Positions 8,534-10,077 of a DNA stretch of 64,000 bases are shown here, piece after piece. Within the stretch, counting starts at the first letter, position 1. The number at the start of each line of letters is the position of its first letter. This DNA is from Actinomycetales bacterium (GTDB lineage Bacteria; Actinomycetota; Actinomycetes; S36-B12; UBA5976). The position numbers and the translations under genes are program-made. A model generated the notes under the pieces. That model made no database searches. It was given only the letters and a program-made list of their open reading frames with translations, and was not told where the DNA came from. The DNA is taken from assembly GCA_027484085.1 (NCBI GenBank), contig JAIXQF010000004.1:320162-384161 (forward strand). The letters are read 5' to 3'.

Positions 8534-9040
8534 ATGCTGACCCCAGAAGATTTTGCAGCAGTTCGATCTCAACTTGGCCGTGACCCAAGAAGTGTGATTG
8601 AAGTTGCCCACCGATGTTCGTGTGGCCAACCTGATGTATTAAAAACTTCACCACGCTTGGATGATGGCACTCCGTTTCCAACGCTTTATTACATGACATG
8701 CCCCAAGGCAACGGGAGCAATCGGCACACTTGAAGCAAATGGTGTGATGAAGGAGTTGGCTGATGCCTTAGCTGCCGACCCAGAACTAGCGGCAAGTTAC
8801 GAAGCTGCTCATCAAATTTATTTGCAAGAACGCGAAGCAATTGAACACGTAGAAGAAATTGCTGGAATTAGTGCCGGCGGAATGCCAACGCGTGTGAAGT
8901 GCCTGCATGTTTTGATCGGACATTCACTAGCTGCAGGTCCAGGTGTAAATCCGCTAGGAGATATCGCCTTAGCTATGTTGAAAGACTGGGGACAAACCGG
9001 ACCATGTGGGGGTGATTACATTGAGAGTGGCAGCAATTGA
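8534..9040 (+). CDS. DUF501 family protein
   Basis: 168 aa. Recognised as the conserved actinobacterial DUF501 family (Rv1025-like) by the Cys/His-bearing stretch AHRCSCGQPDVLKTSPRLDD, then FPTLYYMTCPKA, and by RVKCLHVLIGHSLAAGPGVNPLGD. The Cys and His pattern suggests a metal site, but no function is established. It starts 4 nt after the FtsB-like gene and overlaps ppx by about 20 nt, consistent with an eno-ftsB-DUF501-ppx operon. Confidence 0.88.
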   Translation: MLTPEDFAAVRSQLGRDPRSVIEVAHRCSCGQPDVLKTSPRLDDGTPFPTLYYMTCPKATGAIGTLEANGVMKELADALAADPELAASYEAAHQIYLQEREAIEHVEEIAGISAGGMPTRVKCLHVLIGHSLAAGPGVNPLGDIALAMLKDWGQTGPCGGDYIESGSN

Positions 9041-9953
9041 TTGCGGTACAAATTCAATTCGACTACTGATAGCCGATATTGAGAATGAAAAGTTAACAGA
9101 TGTTGTGCGCACCATGGTTATTGTTCGGCTAGGTGAAGGTGTCGATAAAACGGGTGAGTTCTCGCAAGCAGCTCTGGCAAGAACATTTTCTGCAATTGAT
9201 GAATTCGCTGAATTGATTTCGGAACACAAACCGGAACGCGTTCGATTTGTGGCAACTAGCGCAAGTAGAGACGTTTCAAATCGCGCAGAGTTTGTTGATG
9301 GAATCAAGGTTCGTCTCGGGATTGAACCAGACATCATTAGCGGCGATGAAGAAGCGGAACTTTCCTTCTTGGGAGCAACTGCTGATCTGATTAACTTTGA
9401 CTCAGCCCCAACCGCGCCGTACTTGGTTGTAGATATCGGTGGCGGGTCGACCGAATTTGTTCTCGGTACGAGCAAGCCAAAGTCTGCAATCAGCACAAAT
9501 GTTGGTTGCGTTCGAATGACGGAACGACACCTAGTAAGTGATCCGCCAACTGTTGAGCAAATCGCAGGAGCTACCGCCGATATTGATGCTGCGATTGACC
9601 AGGCTTACGCGGCCGTTCCGGTTGCAGAGGCAAATAGTCTGATTGGCCTGGCTGGTTCCGTAACAACCGTTGCAGCTCTTGCACTTGGTCTTGCTGAATA
9701 TGATTCAGAAGCAATTCATGGCAGCCGAATCTCAGCAGGCGAAGTTCATCGGGTCACGCAAGAGCTTTTGACTATGACTCGGGCGCAGCGGGCCACTTTA
9801 GGTCCTATGCACGAAGGTCGAATCGACGTGATTGCTTCGGGAGCGCTGGTGCTAGATCGAATTATGGCTCGAACTGGGCTTTCTGAAGTGGTTGTTTCGG
9901 AACGTGACATCCTCGATGGAATTGCTCGAGCCTTAGTTTCCAACCCCAGTTAG
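9021..9953 (+). CDS. ppx: Exopolyphosphatase / GppA-family phosphatase
   Basis: 310 aa. Member of the ASKHA-fold Ppx/GppA phosphatases that hydrolyse polyphosphate or pppGpp. Seen: AAIDCGTNSIRLLIAD (phosphate 1 loop), VRFVATSASRD, and VDIGGGSTEFVLG (phosphate 2 loop). It is the short one-core form, without the HD-type C-terminal domain of E. coli Ppx. TTG at 9021 is preferred because GGGGG lies 9 nt before it and it yields the family-typical MRVAAIDCGTNSIR start; GTG at 9006 and 9027 are in frame. Matches Rv1026 in context. Confidence 0.9.
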   Translation: MRVAAIDCGTNSIRLLIADIENEKLTDVVRTMVIVRLGEGVDKTGEFSQAALARTFSAIDEFAELISEHKPERVRFVATSASRDVSNRAEFVDGIKVRLGIEPDIISGDEEAELSFLGATADLINFDSAPTAPYLVVDIGGGSTEFVLGTSKPKSAISTNVGCVRMTERHLVSDPPTVEQIAGATADIDAAIDQAYAAVPVAEANSLIGLAGSVTTVAALALGLAEYDSEAIHGSRISAGEVHRVTQELLTMTRAQRATLGPMHEGRIDVIASGALVLDRIMARTGLSEVVVSERDILDGIARALVSNPS

Positions 9954-9999: not shown

Positions 10000-10077
10000 G
10001 CCCCTGTAGCCCAATCGGTTAGAGGCACACGACTTAAAATCGTGCCAGTGTCGGTTCAAGTCCGACCAGGGGTACCA
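10000..10077 (+). tRNA. tRNA-Leu (anticodon UAA), short variable loop
   Basis: Cloverleaf read by eye: acceptor GCCCCTG with CAGGGGT (G1-U72 wobble, rest Watson-Crick), D arm GCC/GGC with GG in the loop, anticodon stem CACGA/TCGTG with loop CTTAAAA giving UAA, variable loop CCAGT of only 5 nt, T arm GTCGG/CCGAC with TTCAAGT, discriminator A, and an encoded CCA. The anticodon and A73 indicate leucine, but bacterial tRNA-Leu normally carries a long type II variable arm. See findings. Confidence 0.88.

Follow-up and report, generated by a model that had tools for sequence, protein, structure and literature searches.

A tRNA-Leu(UAA) without a long variable arm downstream of ppx in an Actinomycetales genome, an ordinary member of a widespread short-arm class

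In reviews, the long variable arm is presented as invariable in bacterial tRNA-Leu (PMC9976931, PMC7609411, PMC4033280). Leucine identity in E. coli depends on A73, the pair A15-U48, G18G19 and A20a; the anticodon and the long variable arm are both dispensable, and armless variants are charged (PMC9976931). The human mitochondrial tRNA-Leu(UUR), whose identity rests on A73 and A14 (PMC9976931), reads UUR codons without a long variable arm as the tRNA described here would do, but it is organellar, has a floppy anticodon arm and differs in its sequence and its LeuRS. For Mycobacterium tuberculosis, a 2024 paper on the toxin MenT3 attributes long variable loops to tRNA-Leu-2, -3 and -5, which fits with two short ones, and a Mycobacterium genome in our comparison carries short UAA and CAA genes, although short leucine tRNAs are not discussed as a class in that paper (PMC11541572). 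A short-loop tRNA-Leu(TAG) was remarked on in a mycobacterial tRNA cluster (2019 paper, PMC6582537). Such phage- and cluster-borne tRNA-Leu genes, with UAA, CAA or UAG anticodons, share the short variable region with the gene reported here; unlike it, they are accessory copies beside the normal host tRNAs. We found no description of short-arm bacterial UUR tRNA-Leu as a class, but most subscription journals lay outside our search and the class may be known.

The window, i.e. the whole analysed stretch of 64,000 nucleotides, contains a tRNA gene that starts 46 bases behind the end of a ppx-type phosphatase gene. The features are as follows.

9006..9953, + strand: ppx-type phosphatase gene, directly upstream of the tRNA
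10000..10077, + strand: tRNA-Leu(UAA), type I (short variable region), CCA encoded (ARAGORN, RF00005, sequence)
10009..10026, + strand: D arm GCCC-AATCGGTTAG-AGGC, three pairs, with A14 A15, G18 G19 and a C13.A22 mismatch
10035..10037, + strand: anticodon TAA (34-36) in the loop CTTAAAA (10033-10039), stem CACGA/TCGTG (sequence, ARAGORN)
10045..10049, + strand: variable region CCAGT, five bases, U48 opposite A15 (sequence)
10074..10077, + strand: discriminator A73 and CCA (sequence)

ARAGORN, a check proposed in an earlier note on this DNA, called tRNA-Leu with the anticodon taa at 10000-10077 (+), and the Rfam tRNA model RF00005 was covered in full by 10000-10074 (59.6 bits, E 7e-12). Together with the sequence, these calls bear out what that note had read from the letters, namely a UAA (Leu) anticodon, a complete cloverleaf, A73, an encoded CCA and the variable region CCAGT. 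The acceptor stem reads GCCCCTG/CAGGGGT with the end pair G1-U72, and the T arm reads GTCGG-TTCAAGT-CCGAC. The molecule has the leucine anticodon and the complete cloverleaf expected of a tRNA-Leu, but not the long variable arm that marks type II, as CCAGT comprises only five bases and a long arm cannot fit into a tRNA of 78 nt. All features of the short-arm UUR class are present, i.e. a five-base variable region, a three-pair D stem, C12-G23, C13.A22, A15-U48 and A73. The minimum-energy fold of the naked RNA is not the cloverleaf; because this is common for unmodified tRNAs, it was not weighed against the covariance-model match. A further Rfam match, to Plastid-ycf2 antisense, mirrors the tRNA and stayed below threshold (28.6 bits versus a cut-off of 65.7). 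No promoter- or terminator-like site was found by a simple scan, which says little in the source organism.

Like the bacterial type II tRNA-Leu, for example those of E. coli and the bldA tRNA-Leu(UAA) of Streptomyces, the window tRNA combines a leucine anticodon with A73, A14 A15, G18G19 and A15-U48, and its three-pair D stem, with a mismatch at 13.22, is likewise preceded by an A and G21-A22. It differs by its five-base variable region without an arm and, compared within the source genome, by A instead of G at base 9 and by C12-G23 and C13.A22 instead of G12-C23 and G13.A22. Among the E. coli determinants, A73, A15-U48 and G18G19 are present; the conserved A stands at 20b, whereas it is found at 20a in most relatives. 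This displacement is due to an additional U in the D loop, which is common to most of the genus relatives compared.

For a wider view of the conserved bases, 230 distinct short leucine tRNAs were chosen by a D-arm pattern that leaves A73 and base 48 outside. A73 occurs in all 230, and the 15-48 pair is A-U in 197 and G-C in 21 of them. The conservation of the D arm in this set is partly built in by the selection, so a set of 39 genes was used against this bias; it comprises 30 loci from a narrow pattern (anticodon loop, five-base variable-region spacing and T loop only) and nine found by region in genus and family relatives. All 39 are tRNA-Leu(UAA) with A15, U48, A73, C13.A22 and a covarying three-pair D stem, and the variable region is of the CAGT/AAGT type throughout the short-arm family. 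The earlier note had pointed to the G1-U72 end pair and an imperfect D stem. Both are present, but they are family features and not defects, since G1-U72 occurs in 91 of the 230 relatives and C13.A22 in 39/39 genes found without D-arm selection. Furthermore, the D-stem pairs 10-25 and 11-24 keep their pairing among the 230 relatives despite changes on both sides.

An Rfam search of the source genome (G000; 1.8 Mb, 98.4% complete) yielded 44 tRNA matches and was followed by ARAGORN by region. Of the four leucine tRNAs, those with UAA (variable region CCAGT) and CAA (TCAGT) are short-armed, while UAG and GAG are long-armed (85 nt). The short-armed tRNA-Leu(CAA) lies outside the window at G000:C3:932522-932595 (locus L043) and follows the same D-arm plan. 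No long-armed UAA or CAA gene is among the 44 matches; the search for a second, type II tRNA-Leu(UAA) that had been suggested earlier was negative, and the short UAA form occurs without a type II counterpart among these matches. The type II UAA pattern had no match in the source genome or in 22 other sampled genomes of the genus, and the short tRNA-Leu(UAA) is present in 21 of these 23 genomes, source genome included. These counts bear on the idea that the locus is a pseudo-tRNA or a regulatory RNA and that an unseen type II gene reads UUA. One gene could indeed be missing from an assembly of 98.4% completeness, but the type II UAA pattern is seen in 0/23 genomes of the genus and the short form in 21/23, the sides of the stems covary, and UUA is not rare, with 65 of the 411 leucine codons in ten window genes. 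We consider this explanation very improbable.

The meaning of UUA was read from codon alignments of seven window genes with homologues in actinobacterial loci. Among the residues aligned at UUA positions, in segments contributed mostly by eno, ppx and the gene that follows the tRNA, 78% are Leu and 64% are encoded by CUN, a match to leucine at least as good as that of the CUN positions. In the source genome, UUA hence stands at leucine positions. This is relevant for another option of the earlier note, according to which the tRNA carries an amino acid other than leucine, which would mean that UUA is recoded in the lineage. A short variable region is unusual for a leucine tRNA, and by whole-sequence similarity the closest tRNA within the genome is a tRNA-Asn and not a leucine tRNA. 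Nevertheless, UUA aligns with leucine just as CUN does, A73 and A15-U48 are kept family-wide, the leucine determinants are retained in the window tRNA apart from the shifted A20a, and sister lineages carry long-arm leucine tRNAs in place of the short form. A recoded UUA is hence unsupported and, in our view, hardly credible.

The replacement of short by long forms was followed in several genome samples, whose counts are uncorrected for kinship. In the order (n=148), a type I tRNA-Leu(UAA) was found by the narrow pattern in 94 genomes, belonging to 23 of 40 genera, and a type II form in 23; two genomes have both and 33 neither, as pattern searches miss variants (Fisher p 4e-9, an optimistic value because the genomes are related). 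One of the two doubles, G023, may reflect contamination, given that this assembly is 83% complete and its short gene is identical over 75 bases to that of Nocardia carnea. In a class sample of 26 genomes, the UAA gene is short in 14, long in eight and present in both forms in none, and the CAA gene is short in seven, long in 12 and again never present in both forms. Further genomes were reached via named contigs. Both genes are short in Mycobacterium sp. SM1; CAA is short and UAA long in Bifidobacterium, in Salinispora and in two Streptomyces, whose long UAA gene is presumably of the bldA type; and UAA is short and CAA long in Nocardia, Microbacterium, Okibacterium and Brachybacterium. Exceptions are Kibdelosporangium and a Chloroflexaceae MAG, with both forms of CAA, and a Rokubacteria MAG with both forms of UAA. 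In the samples of both the order and the class, short and long genes for one anticodon almost never occur together, which indicates that they do the same job.

The evidence points to a functional, UUA-reading leucine tRNA that is charged by LeuRS and belongs to a conserved type I UUR class; we assign this reading a probability of about 95%, with charging and expression being inferred. The short-arm leucine isoacceptor, one of the options in the earlier note, was the right one. The tRNA would read UUA and probably, by wobble, UUG. The genome encodes one LeuRS, a full-length bacterial protein that has catalytic, editing and anticodon-binding domains, and this single, ordinary enzyme would also charge the short-arm tRNA. 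It is expected to recognise A73 and the corner of D loop and T loop (A15-U48, G18G19 and the neighbouring A) and would not need the long arm. In much of Actinomycetota, the type I UUR-leucine class substitutes for the type II form.

The class is not confined to one lineage. A broader family pattern (UAA or CAA) was run on GTDB species genomes and gave at least 119 stretches, mostly from Actinomycetota among the matches listed, such as Nocardia, Gordonia, Rhodococcus, Mycobacterium, Corynebacterium, Dietzia, Streptomyces, Salinispora, Bifidobacterium, Microbacterium, Planktophila and others. The few from outside, again among the matches listed, belong to Christensenellaceae, Planctomycetota, Rokubacteria, Chloroflexaceae and Deltaproteobacteria. 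In a sample of the phylum, 71 of 296 genomes match. Short-arm genes also occur in viral contigs and in cultured phages, with Streptomyces, Rhodococcus, Myxococcus, Synechococcus, Bacillus, Pseudomonas and Rhizobium as hosts. The special lineage form considered in the earlier note was hence too narrow in scope, given the occurrence across Actinomycetota, in some other phyla and in phages; the window gene is an ordinary member of an old, widespread and little-described short-arm class. Contig L105 bears the label Bifidobacterium breve; it resembles genes of the order itself, and misbinning is probable. Short-arm tRNA-Leu genes with a UAG anticodon were seen in Bacillus phage P59 (L078 301-377) and Streptomyces phage CeilingFan (L081 295-369), so that the short form in phages extends beyond UUR codons. 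An Actinomycetes MAG contig (L163 4835-5152) carries four consecutive leucine tRNAs (GAG, CAA, TAA, CAG), every one of them short-armed.

Similar short-arm tRNA-Leu(UAA) genes in phages of many hosts could suggest that the window gene was recently acquired from a phage as an additional copy. However, it is the sole UAA gene found in its genome, and the position downstream of ppx is shared with 17 other short tRNA-Leu(UAA) loci fetched, each of which is preceded, on the same strand, by a ppx homologue 21 to about 5,100 bases away. These loci include Nocardia, Rhodococcus, Mycobacterium/Mycobacteriaceae, Corynebacterium, Dietzia, Nocardioides, Aeromicrobium and Pseudarthrobacter, and such synteny across families favours an old chromosomal gene over a recent insertion. 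A recent phage copy is accordingly most unlikely, while the short-arm gene may have an ancient phage origin. In contrast to the accessory copies of phages and clusters, the window gene belongs to the chromosomal core.

Contrary to the reviews, many Actinomycetota, mycobacteria and Streptomyces included, have one or both UUR leucine tRNAs without a long arm. This is relevant for isotype-based tRNA annotation, for the choice of tRNAs by LeuRS and by arm-sensing toxins, and for the gain and loss of variable arms; the single window gene contributes little beyond the short-arm family as a whole. As a rather doubtful generalisation, the short-arm UUR tRNAs could represent one family of phages and chromosomes that repeatedly displaced the type II form in Actinomycetota because LeuRS ignores the arm. 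If true, such displacement may affect toxins, nucleases and modification enzymes that target tRNAs and sense the arm.

Some other tRNA genes of the source genome deserve mention. ARAGORN called two Val(GAC) genes with abnormal anticodon loops, one of them without U33, at G000:C3:171369-171440 (L031) and G000:C11:51454-51526 (L038). A tRNA-Gly(ACC), an unusual anticodon for bacteria, lies on a 3.2 kb contig (G000:C4:2065-2136, L041); this gene could stem from a phage, a plasmid or contamination. Besides the chromosomal tRNA-Ser(GCU) at C3:147405-147493, a 13.7 kb contig carries two additional, diverged genes for this tRNA close to its ends (C6:261-349 and C6:13373-13461).
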